DNA of 11,008 bases from positions 1-11,008 of the forward strand of contig JAOQAA010000121.1 in assembly GCA_025963815.1 (NCBI GenBank), read 5' to 3'. Below the pieces are notes generated by a model. That model was not told where the DNA came from, ran no database searches, and saw only the letters and a program-made list of their open reading frames with translations. The translations under genes were made by a program, and so were the position numbers. This DNA is from Capsulimonas sp. (GTDB taxonomy: Bacteria > Armatimonadota > Armatimonadia > Armatimonadales > Capsulimonadaceae). Shown here one piece after another: positions 1 to 7,481 of the stretch; position 1 is the stretch's first letter; each line of letters begins with the position of its first letter.

Positions 1-240
1 GAGCAGCGTGGGCGACGAGGCGACAATGATCCGGTAGCTTGCCTGGAGATATCCCTTTTCCTTGGAAACATCCCGCCAACTCAGGCGCGGCGCCGTCACA
101 TCAATACCCTGAGGATTATCGAGATGCTCGCAGGTCAAACGGTCAAAAGTCACCACGGACGGCGGCCCTGCGGCGATGGAGGCGGACGGCAGGCAGGAAA
201 TCAGTATCGCCAATGATAAAGACGTGGAAATTTTAGACAC
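1..240 (-). CDS. Alpha-L-rhamnosidase (GH78) paralogue, N-terminal 80 codons only
   Basis: This is the start of a second secreted alpha-L-rhamnosidase, cut by the left window edge. It begins at a GTG (240) preceded by AAGGAGA with six bases between. The 80 visible residues align without gaps to the start of the neighbouring rhamnosidase (336-3533); by hand count 64 of 80 are identical, including NPQGIDVT, PRLSW and GYLQASYRIIVASSP, the Fn3-like N-terminal region typical of large bacterial GH78 enzymes. The signal peptide differs: residues 13-16 read LISC, a lipobox-like motif that would place lipidated Cys16 here, whereas the neighbour has MIGA. The gene sits 95 bp downstream of its paralogue but has its own promoter, a copy of the paralogue's. 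Catalytic domains lie outside the window, so activity cannot be judged. Family certainty is high because of the paralogy. Confidence 0.85.
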   Translation of the reverse strand, partial: MSKISTSLSLAILISCLPSASIAAGPPSVVTFDRLTCEHLDNPQGIDVTAPRLSWRDVSKEKGYLQASYRIIVASSPTLL

Positions 241-260
241 TCTCAATCTCCTTGACTTGT

Positions 261-314
261 ATTATAAGTGATTTTAAACGATCCATCCATGGCGAAATTG
301 GATGAAAACTTGTC
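261..314 (-). promoter_or_regulatory. Promoter of the second rhamnosidase (shared box architecture)
   Basis: Reading leftward: GACAAGTTT (306-314), four bases, a CCAATTTCGCCATGG box (287-301), then a perfect TATAAT (261-266) followed by ACAA. The start GTG is about 21 bases beyond the -10, so the transcript leader would be very short and begin almost at the Shine-Dalgarno. No TTGACA-like -35 exists: the expected place overlaps CCATGG, which suggests regulator-controlled initiation. The layout is identical in spacing at 3555-3608 and 4945-4998. Confidence 0.7.
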
Positions 315-335
315 TGATTAGGTAAGAGGGGCCTC

Positions 336-3300
336 CTATCTCTTCACCCGAGACTTCACCACCCAGGCGCCGGACTTCATCTCACGCGAAACACCGTCCG
401 GCGTCGTCACGGTCGCCGTTGTGTTTGTTGGGATCGTGACATTCATGGTGACGCTCTGTCCTGTGCGAGTCCAGTTAGAAACGATCATGCCCTGCGGGGA
501 GTCAAACGAGCACTTGACCCATTGAAGATCGCCGAGTATCTGCGGTTTGATCACGATATGCGAGAAGCCGGGCTTCTTTGGATCGTAATGGATGCCGCCA
601 AGTGTCTGGTAGAACCATGCGTCTACATTGCCCGCTTGGATTAAGAGCGCTTCGCTGTTCATTCCTGGGTCGCGCGTGTCGTAGTCCCAGCGCTCCCAGA
701 TCGCCTGCGCGCCGCGCTTGACCATATATCCCCAACTCGGCCTTGTCGTTTGTGTCACCAATTTCCACGCGACGTCGCCCCGGCCATTCTCCGTCAGCAC
801 CTGCATGAGCCACTGGTTACCGATGAGCCCTACGGTCAGATGTCCGTCATGTGTCACCAAAATGTCGTTGGCGAGGTTATCCACGATCTTCTGAAGCTGC
901 ACTGGATCGGACGGCGTCAGACCGAAGGCCAGCGGCAGGACGTACGAACACTGGGTCCCGCTGGTATAGGTGGCTGTCGCTGGATCGTAGAATCGGGCGA
1001 GGAAGGCTTTGGCGAGGGCGTCGCCCAACTCGCGGAACATCGTGATGTCGTCCGTCTTGCCCAGGCGCTCGGCGGTGCGCTGTGCAATCCGGAGATTGTT
1101 GTATTGATAGGCGGAGGCCACGAGATCCAGTGGGGTCAGGCCATTGTCTTTGATTTTTCCGCCGATCGTGTAGACATCGCACCAGTCCCCGTAGCCGACG
1201 CCCTGGATCGTTCCATCGGGGAGATTATGCTGCTCGCGCATGTTAAGAATCCAGCGCTTCGTCGACTCGTAATGTTTTTGCGCCAGTCCTGTGTCGCCAT
1301 AGAAACCCGTATACCAGTCCGGAATGATCGTGTAGACGCTCGGCCACTCCACGCCATTTCCCGAATCCCAGTACATCGAGAGGTCGGGAATGCTGCCGTT
1401 CGGGCGCTGGGAGCGGTGAACATCGTCCATCCACTTGGTGTAGAAGGCGGCGACATCGTAGTTATACGCCTCGCTTTCGCTATCCTTGGCGGGATCGCCC
1501 ATCCAGGGCTGACGCTCGTCCCGGTCCGGATCGAGCGGCGCGCTGCGCAGGAACATCTTCATTCCCGTCACCATGGCCGCGTGGATCTTGTTGACCGTGT
1601 CATTGGAGCAGGAGAAACTTCCCACCGGACGGACATCCGTATGCTCGTCCAATCCCTCGAAGTTGTCCAGCGTAGGCTTGCCGGGAAAACCCATGACCTG
1701 CACGCGGCGAAAGCCCTGGCCTTTGAAGATCGGATTCCATGTCTCTGCGCCGCTGCCCTGGAATGTATAGTGGTCGGTCGCGAGCGCCGTACGGTTGTCG
1801 GCGGTCTTGAGCGTCCCGTCGGGAAGAAGCGCATAGGCGCTCGTCATATGGACTGTTGTTCCCCGCTTGCCGCGTGCCTTGATGCGAACTGTCCCATAAA
1901 ACGTTTGCCCCATATCGACAACGTAAACACCGGGTTTTGGGGACGTGATCTTGACGGGCTTGATGACGCGCGTCACACGCATCGGTTCGATCATCGGCGC
2001 GATCAGAACTCCGCCGGGCGCTGGCATGATGTCGGGCGTCGTCCAGATCTTTGCGGGCGCTGCGTATCCCGGCTGTGTCCAGCCTGGCATCTCCATGCGC
2101 GCGTCGTAGATCTCGCCGTCGTATTCGTTGTTTGCCCGGATCGGACCCTGATCGGTCATCTTCCAAGTTTGGTCACTGACTATCGTCTGCTTGGAGCCGT
2201 CCTTATAAGTGATCTCGATCTGCGCTAAGACGCGGGGCGCGCCGAAGCTTTCCTGCGTGATCGGCGCGTTCAGTCTGGGCGAGTGGAAACGCCCGTTTCC
2301 TAGAACAACGCCGATGGCGTTTTTCCCATTGCGCATCAGGGCGGTGACATCGGTCGTCACATAGTAGTCCGCCTTTTGAAAATCGGAAAGGGCGGGGTCC
2401 ATCACGTGATCTGAGGCGGGCCTGCCGTTCACGAACAGCTGGAAGAAGCCCGGGGCGCACACATACGCCGTGGCGCGTAAAATCTGTTTGCTCGCCGTAA
2501 ACTCACGACGAAGGTAACGGGCGGGAAGGTCCGGGTGACGGGCGGCCTCGCCTTGGGACACATTGCCCCAGGGTGGCGTGCCGTATGCGCCGAGGTCCAT
2601 TGCCGGTTTCCAGGCGCTGTCCTCGAAATTTGTCGTATTCCAGCCGGCGCCGGCCGCTTCGGAAGATTTCCACTCTGGCCCGGTCGGAATGATGGACGTT
2701 CCGCCATCACGGTATTCGATCTTCAGCGCGCCAATCACGCCCGCCGGACTCTGCCCAGAGTCGCCGGCGTTGTTCGCCTGCACGGCCAGCACGTTATCGC
2801 CACTATGAACGAGCTTGCTGACATCAACTGTCTCCAAAAAATGCCAATCCGCGCTCTTTGCGACCGCCCTCCCGTTGATGTACAGCGTGAATGCATCGTC
2901 CGCCGTGCCCACAAACTCGGCTCGTTTGATCGCGCGGCCATTCGGAACACGAAGGGAGATGCGAAAGAACGCGGCTCCGAGCGGCGCGGCGGAGCTTGGT
3001 TGCGGGGCGTTCGGAAGCCAGATCCATCGCGCGCCTGAAAGAGCGGCGCTTTCCGGATGCGGCGCTTGGAAGGCTTTTCCGATCCATGTGGCTTTCCAGT
3101 CCGTCGGCGCAAGCAATCCCATGCTGAAGGTCGCCGGCTTGCTCCACGCTGATTGTCGCCCCGACGTATCCCACACCTGAACTGCCCACCAACACTGCGT
3201 GCGCGACATCAACGGCGCTCCGGCGTAAGGAATCAGCGTCGTACCGGAATTCTTGACCTTGCCGCTGTCCCAGAGATTGCCTTTCCCTGCTTTGAGCAGC

Positions 3301-3533
3301 ATCGGCGATGAGGCGACAATGATCCGATAACTTGCCTGAAGATACCCTTTCTTGGACGACCTCTCTTGCCAACTCAGACGAGGCTGGGTCACGTCAATGC
3401 CCTGAGGATTATTGAGATATTCGCAGGTCAGGTGGTCAAAGCTCACCGTGGACGGCGGCCCTGCGGCGATGGAGGCGGACGGCAGGGCGCCAATCATTAT
3501 CGCCAATGATAAAGACGCGGAAATTTTAGACAC
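336..3533 (-). CDS. Secreted alpha-L-rhamnosidase, glycoside hydrolase family 78
   Basis: The enzyme is predicted to release terminal alpha-L-rhamnose from plant or microbial rhamnosides outside the cytoplasm. It has 1065 residues, within the range of large bacterial GH78 proteins. Seen: a signal peptide (about residues 1-24, ending SIAAG); an Fn3-like N-terminal region (about 28-140); an extra beta-sandwich with WIWLP and LYINGRAV (about 165-275); the rhamnosidase N-terminal domain (about 335-445, with APGFFQLFVNGR); a Con A-like domain (about 510-630); the (alpha/alpha)6 catalytic barrel (about 640-980); and a C-terminal beta domain. DPDRDERQPW carries the likely general acid (Glu673), and AIWERWD the likely general base (Glu947), by family knowledge. 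The GTG start at 3533 is preferred over an in-frame ATG at 3584: AAGGAG lies 8 bases upstream of it, the signal peptide follows directly, the ATG lies inside the promoter box, and the paralogue's leader is out of frame. It lies just downstream of the regulator gene. Confidence 0.93.
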   Translation of the reverse strand: MSKISASLSLAIMIGALPSASIAAGPPSTVSFDHLTCEYLNNPQGIDVTQPRLSWQERSSKKGYLQASYRIIVASSPMLLKAGKGNLWDSGKVKNSGTTLIPYAGAPLMSRTQCWWAVQVWDTSGRQSAWSKPATFSMGLLAPTDWKATWIGKAFQAPHPESAALSGARWIWLPNAPQPSSAAPLGAAFFRISLRVPNGRAIKRAEFVGTADDAFTLYINGRAVAKSADWHFLETVDVSKLVHSGDNVLAVQANNAGDSGQSPAGVIGALKIEYRDGGTSIIPTGPEWKSSEAAGAGWNTTNFEDSAWKPAMDLGAYGTPPWGNVSQGEAARHPDLPARYLRREFTASKQILRATAYVCAPGFFQLFVNGRPASDHVMDPALSDFQKADYYVTTDVTALMRNGKNAIGVVLGNGRFHSPRLNAPITQESFGAPRVLAQIEITYKDGSKQTIVSDQTWKMTDQGPIRANNEYDGEIYDARMEMPGWTQPGYAAPAKIWTTPDIMPAPGGVLIAPMIEPMRVTRVIKPVKITSPKPGVYVVDMGQTFYGTVRIKARGKRGTTVHMTSAYALLPDGTLKTADNRTALATDHYTFQGSGAETWNPIFKGQGFRRVQVMGFPGKPTLDNFEGLDEHTDVRPVGSFSCSNDTVNKIHAAMVTGMKMFLRSAPLDPDRDERQPWMGDPAKDSESEAYNYDVAAFYTKWMDDVHRSQRPNGSIPDLSMYWDSGNGVEWPSVYTIIPDWYTGFYGDTGLAQKHYESTKRWILNMREQHNLPDGTIQGVGYGDWCDVYTIGGKIKDNGLTPLDLVASAYQYNNLRIAQRTAERLGKTDDITMFRELGDALAKAFLARFYDPATATYTSGTQCSYVLPLAFGLTPSDPVQLQKIVDNLANDILVTHDGHLTVGLIGNQWLMQVLTENGRGDVAWKLVTQTTRPSWGYMVKRGAQAIWERWDYDTRDPGMNSEALLIQAGNVDAWFYQTLGGIHYDPKKPGFSHIVIKPQILGDLQWVKCSFDSPQGMIVSNWTRTGQSVTMNVTIPTNTTATVTTPDGVSREMKSGAWVVKSRVKR

Positions 3534-3609
3534 TCTCAAGTCTCCTTGACTTGTATTATAAGTGTTTTTGAACGATGCATCCATGGCGAAATTGGCGAAA
3601 AACTTGTCT
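3294..3609. repeat. Copy 2 of tandem duplication (rhamnosidase 5' end plus promoter)
   Basis: Partner of bases 1-315. It contains the first 80 codons of the complete rhamnosidase, its Shine-Dalgarno and the full promoter with both upstream boxes. Because the promoter was duplicated with the gene, each paralogue can be transcribed independently under the same control. Confidence 0.85.
3555..3608 (-). promoter_or_regulatory. Promoter of the rhamnosidase (shared box architecture)
   Basis: Reading leftward: GACAAGTTT (3600-3608), four bases, CCAATTTCGCCATGG (3581-3595), then TATAAT (3555-3560) followed by ACAAG. The -35 position is occupied by the CCATGG box and reads TGGATG, far from consensus. 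A transcription start near 3548 would put AAGGAG (3542-3547) at the extreme 5' end of the mRNA, a leader of about 15 bases. The CCATGG-centred box resembles the left half of the palindrome upstream of the regulator gene, so that regulator is the natural candidate to bind here. Confidence 0.72.
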
Positions 3610-3659
3610 TTTACGGCAAAATGAGAGAACGAGGATTGATGGGCGGCTATGGCGGCTTG

Positions 3660-4850
3660 CTAGCGTGCGTGGGTCAAGAGTGCATCTTCGGAGACACATC
3701 GGATGCTGTCGCGCTCGATCAGTCTTGTGGGCAACTCCACATGCGTCAGGGCAATCGTGGGGTATTCGTGGCGGCGAAGGATCAGCTTCGCCGCCGCTCT
3801 GCCGATTTCCTCGAAGGATTGGGCCACGGTGGTCAGTCCGACCCCATTGGGCAGGGTTTGCAGAATGTCGTCGAGGGCGATCAGGGAAACGTCCTGGGGC
3901 GCTTGGAGGCCAAGCATCGAAAGGTGGCGGGCGACACGGTCCGCTTCCTGACCGCCGGCGCAGATCATCGCCGTGGGGCGTCGCCCCAAAGGCTGTCGCA
4001 CCGTCGCATCAAGCATTGCCCATACGTTCGCGTAGTTGGGAGGAGGCGAGAGGACCATTTCATACGCTTCCGCGGAAAACGCCTCCACGAGCGCCTGACG
4101 GTAGCCTCGAATCCGTTCCTGCTCGGTGTGCGTGTACTCTCCGCTCGTGACAAAGGCGATACGCTGGTGCCCCTGATGAATGAGACGCCATGCGGCTTGA
4201 TGCGCCGCTTCCCGGAAATCAGACCCTATGAAATCGGACTGTACGCCAGGCGTCGTTCGGTTCAGCAGGACAAGCGGCATATGCTTCGGCGTCTCCAAAA
4301 TCCATTGGGGTACGCGGCAGTTCTGAGGATAATAGACGACGCCTCCAAAGCCCTGACGGAAGGCGTAACGGAGGTGATCTTCTTCACTTTCGGGACTTTT
4401 CGGCCCTGGCTCTAAATTATGCCCGATGTCAATACAGATTCCATGCCGCCCCGATCCTCGGAGCGCCTCATCCATTCCCGAGAACACGCGCCGCTGTGCG
4501 CTTCTCGCGAGTTCCCCGGCGTCCCAGCGCCACATGACCAGAGCAATGACGCGCACAGGATCCAAAGCGGGCGCCATGGAGAGCATCTCTGATCCGTTCG
4601 GCGGCGCCTTGGCTTCGCCCACGACGGCGCGGCAGTGGGGGCGTCGATCGAGAAACCCCTCCAGGGTCATCTCCGTGATCGCCGCGCGGATCGCTTCTTG
4701 GGCGACATTCAGCTCTTCCGATAATACGCGTATGGAAGGCAGCCTGTCTCCACGCCGGTAGCGGCCGGACTGAATGTAATCAAGCAGAAGCGTGTTCACA
4801 TTGTTCGGCGAACTATTCGACTGTCTGTAGCGAGATGAGATTGTATCCAT
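3660..4850 (-). CDS. GntR-type HTH / LacI-type sensor transcriptional regulator
   Basis: A 396-residue DNA-binding regulator with the AraR-like layout: an N-terminal GntR winged helix (about residues 17-78; GRYRRGDRLPSIRVLSEELNV, then EMTLEGFL) joined to a LacI/periplasmic-binding-protein-like sugar-sensing domain (about 100-385). The sensor shows RIAFV (230-234), ERIRGYRQAL, DVSLIALDD (320-328), LTTVAQSFEEIGRAAAKL (339-356) and LPTRLIERDS, all typical of LacI effector domains. It probably binds a rhamnose-containing sugar or breakdown product and controls the adjacent rhamnosidases. This role is inferred from position and from promoter boxes shared with them. Its own promoter holds a near-perfect 20-bp palindrome, implying autoregulation. 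No clear Shine-Dalgarno precedes the ATG at 4850; the expected GntR fold starts soon after, so the start is probably right. The effector and the sign of regulation are unknown. Confidence 0.9.
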   Translation of the reverse strand: MDTISSRYRQSNSSPNNVNTLLLDYIQSGRYRRGDRLPSIRVLSEELNVAQEAIRAAITEMTLEGFLDRRPHCRAVVGEAKAPPNGSEMLSMAPALDPVRVIALVMWRWDAGELARSAQRRVFSGMDEALRGSGRHGICIDIGHNLEPGPKSPESEEDHLRYAFRQGFGGVVYYPQNCRVPQWILETPKHMPLVLLNRTTPGVQSDFIGSDFREAAHQAAWRLIHQGHQRIAFVTSGEYTHTEQERIRGYRQALVEAFSAEAYEMVLSPPPNYANVWAMLDATVRQPLGRRPTAMICAGGQEADRVARHLSMLGLQAPQDVSLIALDDILQTLPNGVGLTTVAQSFEEIGRAAAKLILRRHEYPTIALTHVELPTRLIERDSIRCVSEDALLTHAR

Positions 4851-4888
4851 CGGTCTTTATCGGTTAATTTTACAGACGCCGCCAATGA

Positions 4889-4902
4889 CAATACCAGTAT
4901 TG
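4889..4902. promoter_or_regulatory. Short palindrome in the regulator's 5' leader
   Basis: CAATAC-CA-GTATTG has perfect 6-bp arms. It lies between the predicted transcription start (near 4938) and the regulator's start codon at 4850, so it could be a second operator or a weak RNA hairpin. Evidence is symmetry alone. Confidence 0.3.
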
Positions 4903-4944
4903 CATAGAGTGGGATTGAATGGTCTTCAGGCCGTCTTTCTTTGT

Positions 4945-4998
4945 ATTATAGGAGGAGCCGGGGATTATCGCCATGGTGATAATGGTAAGAAACTTGTC
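4945..4998 (-). promoter_or_regulatory. Promoter of the GntR/LacI regulator (shared box architecture)
   Basis: Reading leftward: GACAAGTTT (4990-4998), four bases, CCATTATCACCATGG (4971-4985), then TATAAT (4945-4950) followed by ACAA. Offsets from the -10 hexamer to CCATGG (26 bases) and to the far box (45 bases) equal those of both rhamnosidase promoters, although the filler sequence is unrelated here. Conservation is therefore functional and not just the product of the duplication. The predicted leader is about 88 bases. Confidence 0.72.
4964..4983. promoter_or_regulatory. Candidate operator palindrome (autoregulation)
   Basis: ATTATC-G-CCATGG-T-GATAAT is symmetric at 18 of 20 positions; only the pair flanking CCATGG is asymmetric. 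It covers the -35 region of the regulator's promoter, where bound protein would interfere with or recruit RNA polymerase. The rhamnosidase promoters keep the left half and the CCATGG centre but not the right half, which suggests weaker or asymmetric binding there. Confidence 0.6.
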
Positions 4999-5072
4999 CA
5001 TAATGGGAAGTAACTGAGAGGATGCTTAATGGCTTCGACGAGCGTCTCGGGCGCCGGTCGATCCATTGCCGT

Positions 5073-5116
5073 CCACCAGACCGATCAAGCGCGATCACGT
5101 CCGATCAGTCTGGTGG
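5073..5116 (-). terminator. Long hairpin after the pseudopilin gene (terminator-like, no U-tract)
   Basis: Arms CCACCAGACCGATC (5073-5086) and GATCAGTCTGGTGG (5103-5116) enclose 16 bases. As DNA there is one mismatch. As leftward RNA that position becomes a G-U pair, so the 14-bp stem is fully paired only on the strand that transcribes the pseudopilin. It lies 22 bases past the stop codon. No U-run follows, so it may be a 3'-end-stabilising or factor-dependent structure and not an intrinsic terminator. Confidence 0.45.
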
Positions 5117-5137
5117 TAATTCTACTTGGATCCGTTA

Positions 5138-5995
5138 CTATCGGGTGCTGAAGGTGGCGGCGAAGACGCTGTTATCCGTTCCGGCCGCCGTGTTGCTTCC
5201 CCCAGTGCAGCCTGCGATGGCGGGATTGTTATCCTGGTTACAGGCGGCTCCGGAAGCGTCGTCACCTTTAGAAACCGCCGCTCCGCGGAACCATTTGGCG
5301 TGACCGTCGGCGAGCAGGAAGTTTGAGCCGTCCGTATGCCGCGCCGTGTTGTAATGAACCCAGCCGTATGCGTTCGGGCCGGGGCAGGTTCCGGGGTCGC
5401 CGCCGAGGCATCCTGTCGCCAGCCCGTCGACGATATTTGTCCCTTGCGTGTTGCCAGGCCCGTTGGTCGCTGAAGAATGGTAATGGTTGGGGTTGGTGGT
5501 GGTCTCGTAGGGATCCGTTATGACGGCAATGGTGCTGTAAGCTTCGCACAACAGGATAGTCTTTGCGGGAGCGGCCAGTGCCGGAATGCTTCCCTTCACG
5601 TTTCCATCCGTTCGGGTAATGTCCAGGTTGACCGAATAGGAAACCGGGACCGCCGTCGCGTTTGCTTCGGGAACGGCCTTCGTCGAATCATCCGGACACG
5701 CATAAACCCCGGCGCTCTTCACATAGGGATAAACCTGCCCGGCCCAGCCGACGCCCAAGAAGCCGTTACTCGCGCCGCCCGCGCCGCCGGTCGGATACGC
5801 CTCATCGTTGTCGTTCGAATATTGAAGAAACGCAAGTCCGAGCTGCTTTTCGTTGGAGACGCAGCTGGTCTGGCGAGCCTTCTCGCGAGCCTTGGCGAAA
5901 ACTGGGAAGAGAATGGCGGCGAGAATCGCGATAATAGCGATGACAACGAGTAATTCGATCAGAGTAAATGCGGATGATTTAGCCTTGAGTAACAT
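5138..5995 (-). CDS. DUF1559 pseudopilin with prepilin N-terminus and H-x9-DG motif
   Basis: A 285-residue type IV pilin-like surface or periplasmic protein. Residues 1-40 are a class III prepilin signal: MLLKAKSSA, then [22 protein letters not shown] with cleavage expected before Phe10, Glu at mature position +5, and a hydrophobic alpha1 helix. The residue before the cleavage site is Ala instead of the usual Gly. The DUF1559 body follows ([28 protein letters not shown]), and the hallmark His220-x9-Asp230-Gly231 ([15 protein letters not shown]) lies near the C-terminus. The ATG at 5995 is chosen because it places the pilin signal at the N-terminus and AAGGAG lies 12 bases upstream; the open frame continues to 6142 but would bury the signal. 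The function of DUF1559 pseudopilins is not established; they are abundant in Planctomycetota, Verrucomicrobiota, Lentisphaerota and Armatimonadota, often near sugar-use genes, as here. Confidence 0.92.
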
Positions 5996-6033
5996 ATAAA
6001 TCCCGATCTCCTTTTCACTACGGACGAAGTATG

Positions 6034-6077
6034 CACGGAGGTCTCCGTGTACCACACTATTAGTATAACACACGGAG
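6034..6077. promoter_or_regulatory. CACGGAG operator-like sites at the pseudopilin promoter
   Basis: A dyad CACGGAG-GT-CTCCGTG with perfect 7-bp arms (6034-6049) lies just downstream of the predicted pseudopilin transcription start. A third CACGGAG (6071-6077) sits in the promoter spacer, so a larger inverted repeat (6043-6050 with 6070-6077) brackets the -10. The arrangement suits a repressor binding both sides of the start site. The binding protein is unknown, and the motif is unrelated to the CCATGG boxes. Confidence 0.5.
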
Positions 6078-6090
6078 TGCACCATGTCAA
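6062..6090 (-). promoter_or_regulatory. Sigma70-type promoter of the pseudopilin gene
   Basis: Reading leftward: TTGACA (6085-6090), a 17-base spacer, TATACT (6062-6067). This is a perfect -35, optimal spacing and a five-of-six -10. The start near 6055 gives a leader of about 60 bases to the ATG at 5995. It is the most consensus-like promoter in the window. Confidence 0.75.
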
Positions 6091-6142
6091 ATATTAATGC
6101 ACCATTTAATTTATATGGGGCGCTAATGACTTTGTGGTGCAT
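6078..6142. repeat. Three TGCACCAT motifs upstream of the pseudopilin
   Basis: TGCACCAT occurs at 6078-6085 and 6098-6105 in direct orientation, exactly 20 bases apart (about two helical turns), and inverted as TGGTGCAT at 6135-6142. The first overlaps the promoter spacer and -35 edge and the others lie upstream, an arrangement typical of a regulator contacting the same DNA face. No protein can be assigned. Confidence 0.45.
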
Positions 6143-6233
6143 TTCTGATTCTCCTCGCGATCAATCATCATTGAATGCGGCAGATTATATTTATTGTGCG
6201 GCAAAGCGCTTATTAGTATTTTCCAATATTTCC

Positions 6234-6262
6234 TTGACAAACTCCCAGACTTATTGTATGAC
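6234..6262 (+). promoter_or_regulatory. Promoter of the cytochrome c peroxidase gene
   Basis: TTGACA (6234-6239), a 17-base spacer, TATGAC (6257-6262): a perfect -35 with a four-of-six -10. The predicted start near 6269 gives a leader of about 58 bases to the TTG start at 6327. Confidence 0.65.
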
Positions 6263-6326
6263 TATTAGGCAGTTCGCTGCTTCATGAAATGATTTGGGCG
6301 CGAATGCGTCACCCTCGGAGGAAGAG

Positions 6327-7481
6327 TTGAAAATCAACGGCCGGATTTCGATGATCGTTACAGTGCTGTGCACCGCGATCCTGGGTTCGACTCTGCTCGT
6401 GGCCGGCTGCGGCGGCGGGGGAGGCGGGGGCGGCGACAATACGCCGGCCGATAAGGCGATGCTGGGGAAGGCGTTCTTCAATGACCGTACGCTTTCTTCG
6501 CCGGGTGGGCAGTCCTGCGCAACGTGTCACGGATCGGCGAACGCGTTCACGGATGGCCGGCAGGATTCGCCGACTTCGGAAGGCGCCACGGCCGGCCGGT
6601 TCGGCAAGCGCCAGACTCCTTCGATCCGTTATATGGCGTTCTCGCCCCGGTTCCATTTTGACGCCGGCGAGCAGGACTACATTGGCGGACAGTTCTGGGA
6701 TGGACGCGCGGTCGATCTCAAGGACCAGATCCACTTCCCTTTGCTCAATGTCGCCGAAATGAACAACGCCAGCAAAGCGGACATCGTCGCCAAGGTGAGC
6801 GCTGGACCGTCCGCCGACCGTCTGCGCGCTGTTTATGGCCCCGACGTTTTCAGCACGACGGATCAGGCGTTCGACGCCATCGCCGATTCTATCGCCCGCT
6901 TCGAAGCGTCGTCTGAGTTCAACTCGTTTACGTCGAAGTATGACTTCTATCTGAAGGGGCGGGCGACGCTGACGGCCACCGAGATGCGTGGTCTGACGCT
7001 CTTCAAAGGCAAGGCGGCCTGCGCCAACTGCCATCCGAGCGACCCGGGCCCGAACGGCGAGCCGCCGCTCTTCACCGACTTCACCTACGACAATATCGGC
7101 CTTCCGCGCAATCCGAACAATCGGTTCCTGAACATGCCGCCGTCCATCAACCCCGACGGCCCCTCGTTCGCCGACATCGGCCTGCAGCAGACGACCGGGC
7201 GCGTGGACGACGCGGGACGCTTCAAAGTGCCGACCCTGCGTAATGTCGCTGTTACCGCCCCATACTTCCATAACGGCGGGATTACGACGCTGGATCAGGC
7301 AGTTCAGTTCTACAACAAGCGGGACCTCGGCGGCTTCGGCACAGCCGAATTCCCCGCGACAATGAACCGTGAGGAGCTTGGCAACCTGCACCTCACCGAC
7401 GATGAAGTGACCGACATCGTCGCATTCCTCAAAACCCTCACCGACGGCTACGCCGCCGGCGCGGTTGCTACCAAAGCATAG
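6327..7481 (+). CDS. Di-heme cytochrome c peroxidase / MauG-family lipoprotein
   Basis: A 384-residue exported di-heme protein. Such proteins reduce peroxide with electrons from small cytochromes or, in MauG relatives, oxidise a protein partner. Two c-type heme sites are visible: CATCH (Cys64, Cys67, His68) and CANCH (Cys232, Cys235, His236), the usual pair. Family signatures include TPSIRYMAFSPRFHFD, GQFWDGRA and FKVPTLRNVAVTAPYFHNGG (residues 299-318), followed by a DQAVQFYN segment. A signal peptide ends in LVAGC, so Cys28 is probably lipidated, followed by a run of glycines before the heme domain. The TTG at 6327 is chosen because GGAGG lies 5 bases upstream and the signal peptide follows at once; an earlier in-frame TTG at 6294 has no ribosome site. 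The gene is monocistronic, with its own promoter and terminator. Whether it is a true peroxidase or MauG-like cannot be settled by eye. Confidence 0.9.
   Translation: MKINGRISMIVTVLCTAILGSTLLVAGCGGGGGGGGDNTPADKAMLGKAFFNDRTLSSPGGQSCATCHGSANAFTDGRQDSPTSEGATAGRFGKRQTPSIRYMAFSPRFHFDAGEQDYIGGQFWDGRAVDLKDQIHFPLLNVAEMNNASKADIVAKVSAGPSADRLRAVYGPDVFSTTDQAFDAIADSIARFEASSEFNSFTSKYDFYLKGRATLTATEMRGLTLFKGKAACANCHPSDPGPNGEPPLFTDFTYDNIGLPRNPNNRFLNMPPSINPDGPSFADIGLQQTTGRVDDAGRFKVPTLRNVAVTAPYFHNGGITTLDQAVQFYNKRDLGGFGTAEFPATMNREELGNLHLTDDEVTDIVAFLKTLTDGYAAGAVATKA

Follow-up and report, generated by a model that had tools for sequence, protein, structure and literature searches.

The window analyzed here is an 11,008-nt stretch of DNA from Capsulimonas sp. 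(Armatimonadota, Capsulimonadaceae; contig JAOQAA010000121.1), corresponding to contig C306 of an assembly that we denote G000 (4,766,808 bp in 734 contigs, 69% complete). Its minus strand carries two α-L-rhamnosidase genes and a regulator gene, whose three promoters share a conserved upstream site that is the subject of this analysis. One rhamnosidase gene (336..3533, minus strand) codes for a GH78 enzyme (PF17389, PF08531, PF25788, PF05592, PF17390), and the other (1..240, minus strand), which has a near-duplicate N-terminus, is represented by the 5' part of the gene only, being cut by the contig end. The regulator (3660..4850, minus strand) combines a GntR-type DNA-binding domain with a LacI-type sugar-binding domain in one protein, and we interpret its gene as a target of the shared site. 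The mechanically called open reading frame of the GH78 gene (336-3584) starts at an ATG at 3584 that lies upstream of the promoter -10 element, and the real start is probably the GTG at 3533; the leaders of both rhamnosidase genes are very short, each with an AAGGAG followed by a GTG (at 3533 and at 240, the latter being the likely start of the second gene).

We refer to the promoters of the second rhamnosidase, the first rhamnosidase, and the GntR/LacI regulator as P1, P2, and P3, respectively. A preliminary description of this DNA had reported that all three contain GACAAGTTT, CCATGG, and TATAATACAA at identical offsets, and a position search recovers exactly this arrangement: on the minus strand and in the order P1 to P3, GACAAGTTT lies at 314-306, 3608-3600, and 4998-4990, CCATGG at 292-287, 3586-3581, and 4976-4971, and the -10 element TATAATACAA at 266-257, 3560-3551, and 4950-4941. 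The reported distances of 45 and 26 bases to TATAAT hold in all three for the left edges of the boxes on the plus strand; counted from their 5' ends on the transcribed strand, the boxes begin 48 and 26 nt upstream of the first base of TATAAT, with 20 nt separating CCATGG from TATAAT. The longer consensus GACAAGTTT-N4-CCAWTWTCRCCATGG is likewise present at each promoter. Within the window, GACAAGTTT and TATAATACAA occur at these three places only, and CCATGG occurs at two further places. Inside the boxes 30/30 bases are identical, the boxes having been chosen from these very sequences, whereas outside them P3 has 36/100 bases in common with P2 and 23/100 with P1; in the spacer between the site and TATAAT the corresponding values are 4/20 and 3/20, in agreement with the earlier statement that the filler of the regulator promoter is unrelated. 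The companion statement that P1 and P2 are duplicates holds mainly from the site onward, with 17/20 spacer bases alike but 49/100 overall. The lack of a recognizable -35 element is also borne out: at a threshold of at least 9/12 matches no sigma-70 pair is called on the own strand of P1, P2, or P3, and none of the three has a TTGACA-like -35 at the distance of 16-18 nt that marks a standard sigma-70 promoter. The same scan does detect TTGACA-17-TATACT elsewhere in the window, and one weak call (9/12) overlaps P3 on the opposite strand.

The upstream site spans 36 bp and consists of a tandem direct repeat, CC(A)-N6-ACAAG-N7-CCA-N7-CATGG, whose period is 21 bp. An outer CC(A) box stands 8 bases 5' of GACAAG; neither this box nor the 21-bp periodicity figured in the preliminary description. 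In the aligned sites, each half-site has roughly the form CC(A)-N6-[A/C]CA[A/T]G, with two boxes about one helical turn apart. On the minus strand, the distal half-site of P1, CCTAATCAGACAAG (309..322), is followed at 21 bp by the proximal half-site CCAATTTCGCCATGG (287..301), which includes the CCATGG box; the counterparts are CCGTAAAAGACAAG (3603..3616) and CCAATTTCGCCATGG (3581..3595) at P2, and CCATTATGGACAAG (4993..5006) and CCATTATCACCATGG (4971..4985) at P3. When each of nine sites is slid along itself, identity is highest at lag 21 (mean 7.8/14, compared with at most 5.8 at the other lags from 5 to 34). As part of this signal is built in by the search patterns, we retested it on the unconstrained bases only, of which 36/72 are alike at lag 21 (shuffled mean 18.5, standard deviation 3.5; 0/20,000 shuffles as high). 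Identity at this lag is 6-12/14 in 13 AraC-adjacent sites.

With the T of TATAAT set at -12, the operator extends from about -68 to -33, and its proximal half-site occupies the -35 position. The direct half-sites about 21 bp apart, the two boxes in each, and the location of the proximal half-site at the missing -35 coincide with the usual layout of AraC/XylS dimer sites; XylS, MekR, and AraC sites of this kind are quoted in PMC4514859. Judged by this anatomy, what had appeared as two distinct boxes are the two half-sites of a single predicted AraC/XylS-type operator. The earlier proposal that two proteins might each contact a site of their own finds no support, because both boxes match in register at lag 21 in the layout of an AraC dimer.

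An exact search for GACAAGTTT-N10..18-CCATGG in 61 genomes (G000 and 60 relatives) found four matches in the 4.77 Mb of G000, namely P1, P2, P3, and a site on contig C461, all with the same 13-nt gap and with TATAAT at the same place. The reversed pattern has none in G000, so the boxes occur at their set offsets far above chance. The one other genome with an exact match is G001, a 7.6-Mb genome of the same genus. The full layout, including TATAAT and allowing up to 3 mismatches, has 16 matches in seven family genomes versus 2 for the reversed pattern as control. An AraC gene adjoins seven of these: the one on C461, three matches in G001, a single match in G002, and two matches in G005. Five more comprise P1, P2, P3, a site on C666 at a DUF1559 gene that lies behind a rhamnosidase gene, and a site on C683 at a gene whose GH43 match is sub-threshold; the other four (G003:C25, G001:3867492, G000:C75, G005:C38) we take as chance occurrences. 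The pattern CGCCATGG-N20-TATAATACA, with 2 mismatches, yields 11 matches versus 2 in the reversed control; those at L017, L018, L020, and L022 are without a visible regulon link and are probably due to chance. A version with a 22-bp period gives 4 matches (including one each in G001 and G006) versus 0 in the control; it is found before another rhamnosidase gene of G000 (G000:C462:3320-3382), whose product is 61% identical to that of the window, and beside an AraC match in G005 (G005:C12:51431-51493, L174). The earlier suggestion of a regulon under selection is supported by these additional G000 sites, which precede rhamnosidase (C462), PhyH (C461), DUF1559 (C666), and sub-threshold-GH43 (C683) genes. 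Prepilin-like DUF1559 genes with very similar N-termini occur in the window (5138-6142), at L006 (525-1421), downstream at L014, and at L118 (1674-2516), and 3 of these 4 directly follow or face an AraC-type site.

For more distant comparisons we trained a site matrix on seven sites (P1, P2, P3, C461, G001, G002, and C666, scoring 44-54), after excluding C462 with its extra base, G005:C62, G001:679702, C683, and weaker matches. In G000, G001, and G002, 14 regions preceding other GH78-matching genes were scanned, and 13 of them, not all of which are certain to reach the promoter, contain no match above 2.5. Because these 13 regions are without it, the site is specific to one rhamnosidase group rather than a mark of all rhamnosidases. 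The exception (L102, G000:C586) scores 11.7 and has a GH78 gene on one side and a different AraC gene on the other. This related, weaker direct repeat (L102 at 3760, L035 at 1279) is followed by TATAAT, and may mark a second AraC-rhamnosidase pair that works in parallel and has a specificity of its own.

On C461 the site is situated between a divergent AraC-family gene (G000:C461:8055-8978) and a gene for a PhyH-type dioxygenase. The AraC protein shows the combination that typifies the AraC/XylS family, with a DNA-binding region of two helix-turn-helix (HTH) motifs and a ligand-binding domain (HTH_18 and AraC_binding; PF12833, PF00165 in two stretches, PF02311), and its best solved relative by sequence is the DNA-binding domain of the E. 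coli arabinose regulator (2k9s). All three family orthologs, in G000, G001, and G002 (100%, 81%, and 76% identity), have a site with 0-1 mismatch at the 5' end of the AraC gene; a comparison of orthologous loci, which the preliminary description had called for, hence finds the site kept in G001 and G002 beside the orthologous AraC gene. The likely AraC start codon, as read from the sequence, is 11 bases from the operator edge in C461, G001, G002, and L144, and given this short distance AraC would probably also limit its own transcription. The site is followed by DUF1559, PhyH, and GH78 rhamnosidase genes in G001 and by PhyH and GH78 genes in G002. The order PhyH then GH78 recurs in G001, G002 (the same locus as L143), L144, and L145, with GH78 proteins that are 62-67% identical to the rhamnosidase of the window (63% in G001 and 67% in G002). 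Rhamnose-related enzymes cluster on the C461 contig (L087) too, where one gene codes for a GH106 α-L-rhamnosidase and another for a protein of 844 aa whose GH78-like hairpin match is weak and falls just below the threshold (244-3645, 4634-7168).

A scan of GTDB with an alignment of five site-associated AraC proteins returned 26 loci, of which 25 were tested with the matrix after omission of L143, the G002 training locus. None of these 25 contributed a training site; L146 is the G005:C22 contig, whose AraC is part of the query alignment and whose site is absent from the matrix. In 11/25 untrained loci the locus-best match is located upstream of AraC at a distance of no more than 150 bp, whereas 200 column-permuted matrices average 0.66 such loci and never exceed 3. 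Ten of the 11 are on the divergent strand, and L152, on the wrong strand and with a negative score, reduces the stricter count to 10. A divergent PhyH homolog, as defined by tblastn with three PhyH queries (E up to 1e-6), is found in 14/26 loci, and a divergent-strand site is present in 10/13 untrained loci with a divergent PhyH gene versus 0/12 without one (Fisher p=9e-5, a value that is too small, as several of the Planctomycetota loci are near relatives). The site-bearing loci derive from Armatimonadota/Armatimonadetes, Chthonomonadaceae, Capsulimonadaceae, Planctomycetota, Phycisphaerae, Methylacidiphilales (Verrucomicrobiota), and one unnamed bacterium. At L149, L150, L151, L153, and L156 (Planctomycetota/Phycisphaerae), as well as at L155 and L157, AraC faces PhyH across direct repeats of the CCA-N6-ACAT(G/A) type.

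The anatomy of the site, its periodicity, and its conservation next to AraC genes are direct observations. Taken together with the promoter layout, we consider it quite likely that P1, P2, and P3 are class-II-like targets of an AraC/XylS activator encoded in trans, probably the AraC protein of C461. An AraC dimer with two HTH motifs per subunit would occupy the 36-bp repeat at about -68 to -33, and, once bound, would replace the missing -35 polymerase contact beside the perfect -10. The AraC at C461 would then switch on several α-L-rhamnosidases together with the GntR/LacI regulator, and a rhamnose-containing compound might be the trigger, in view of the nature of the targets. Binding, activation, the ligand, and the action of the C461 AraC rather than a paralog at all three promoters are the predicted components of this scheme.

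Such a scheme has clear precedents in the better-known members of the family. As in AraC at araI, two half-sites adjoin the promoter, and each is made up of two short boxes spaced by about a helical turn, for a dimer whose subunits have two HTH motifs each; binding at araI2 recruits RNA polymerase, according to PMC4760080. Unlike araI, the present boxes have other sequences, and the targets are rhamnosidases, PhyH, and a GntR/LacI regulator. By their written spacings, the sites of XylS (TGCA-N6-GGNTA twice) and MekR (CACC-N5-CTTCAA twice) quoted in PMC4514859 have the same 21-bp direct-repeat period; their box sequences differ from the present ones, as do the pathways under their control. In Bacillales, Bacteroides, and Enterococcus, AraC-family rhamnose regulators also use 21-bp direct repeats to control rhamnose genes, as stated in PMC3870299, where these groups are defined by rha catabolic genes and said to have unique motifs. 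The lineages in the figure legends of that study do not include Armatimonadota, and the sections consulted do not mention a pairing with PhyH. E. coli RhaS and RhaR likewise belong to the AraC family and activate rhamnose genes, as the proposed activator would, but the same study describes their sites as inverted repeats (two 17-bp half-sites with a 17-bp spacer for RhaR), whereas the present repeat is direct. The operator type is therefore well known, and its target set was not found described in a limited literature search, which turned up nothing on such regulation in the phylum and nothing relevant by title on PhyH, AraC, planctomycete, and rhamnose.

Several observations weigh against the proposed AraC scheme. 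The contig of the window is without an AraC gene, so the regulation would have to operate in trans, and as G000 is 69% complete, another AraC of the same clade could be missing from it. AraC paralogs are numerous (31 matches in G000, 60 in G001, and 55 in G005), and some distant ones do have similar sites, so that a particular paralog cannot be singled out from the motif by itself. Among 27 family AraC paralog loci, the locus-best match lies beside AraC in 4 only (L029, L033, L035, L047), and the paralogs at 39% identity to the C461 protein (L034, L040, L041) have no AraC-adjacent matrix match; on account of both results, the site belongs to part of this AraC family and not to all of it. The C462 rhamnosidase site has one extra base between its half-sites (22 bp). 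In G001 a single site has fewer than 3 mismatches, so that a multi-target regulon is seen in G000 alone, and several of the GTDB loci are close relatives and not independent.

The neighboring GntR/LacI protein (3660-4850), which the preliminary description had implied as the binder, could in principle contact both boxes at all three promoters and autoregulate, its gene being adjacent and its own promoter bearing, besides the site, a 20-bp palindrome, ATTATCgCCATGGtGATAAT (4964..4983), that overlaps the proximal half-site and lies exactly over CCATGG, with 9/10 pairs matching. We regard this as very unlikely. The same place is not palindromic in P1 and P2 (5/10 pairs each), so that a LacI/GntR-type operator is not a feature common to the three promoters, and LacI-type operators, which are 20-bp palindromes according to PMC3870299, are unlike a 21-bp direct repeat. 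Moreover, the best relative of the regulator in the six other family genomes is just 45% identical (in G001; the best in G002 is 35%), yet G001 and G002 keep the site beside the orthologous AraC gene; since the site is thus retained in genomes without a close ortholog of the regulator, the latter cannot be the common factor there and is more likely to be a target of the shared site than its binder. The GntR/LacI protein is a member of a large paralogous family, with 47 matches in G000, 78 in G001, and 133 in G005. The P3 palindrome itself may be a candidate operator of the regulator, but it has one other place in G000 at 3 mismatches, the same number as its reversed control, and a 9/10 palindrome is found within 300 bp upstream of 0/5 GntR/LacI paralogs, which is weak evidence as these are 40-45% identical. 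It is conceivable, though rather doubtful, that P3 is a dual operator, at which AraC would activate through the direct repeat and the GntR/LacI protein on the palindrome would oust the activator, resulting in a two-sensor cascade with feedback; if true, this cascade would be an addition to an AraC-PhyH operator module that Armatimonadota share with Planctomycetota and Methylacidiphilales.

That two different proteins bind, one at GACAAGTTT and the other at CCATGG, is suggested by boxes that differ at first sight and by the palindrome at P3, which could host a second protein; we nevertheless give this little credence, as the boxes match in register at lag 21, with the flanking CCA included, and recur together beside AraC genes in other phyla. 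The constant distance to a perfect -10 and the absence of a -35 call on that strand might also fit a non-standard sigma factor or an extended -10 class, with the upstream boxes as polymerase contacts. This is extremely unlikely, since the boxes extend to about -68, the 36-bp site is both AraC-associated and rare (the four exact matches), and TATAAT is itself the housekeeping -10. As for the idea that recent duplication spread the promoter copies while the boxes were not under selection, P1 and P2 are evident duplicates by their spacers, but P3 has the boxes with only 3-4 of the 20 spacer bases in common with them, and the layout is kept across genera and phyla, leaving this explanation with next to no probability. 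A recent copying of P3 from P1 or P2 can be rejected, because the spacer would then have to match and does not.

With an AraC/XylS activator as the preferred explanation, an orphan promoter motif gains a candidate protein and a testable regulon. The case also illustrates how a neighboring regulator gene can mislead, for the regulator next door looks like a target. The AraC-site-PhyH arrangement is kept in several phyla and is joined to an α-L-rhamnosidase in part of them; it suggests a role in plant-glycan breakdown for the PhyH-type oxygenase.

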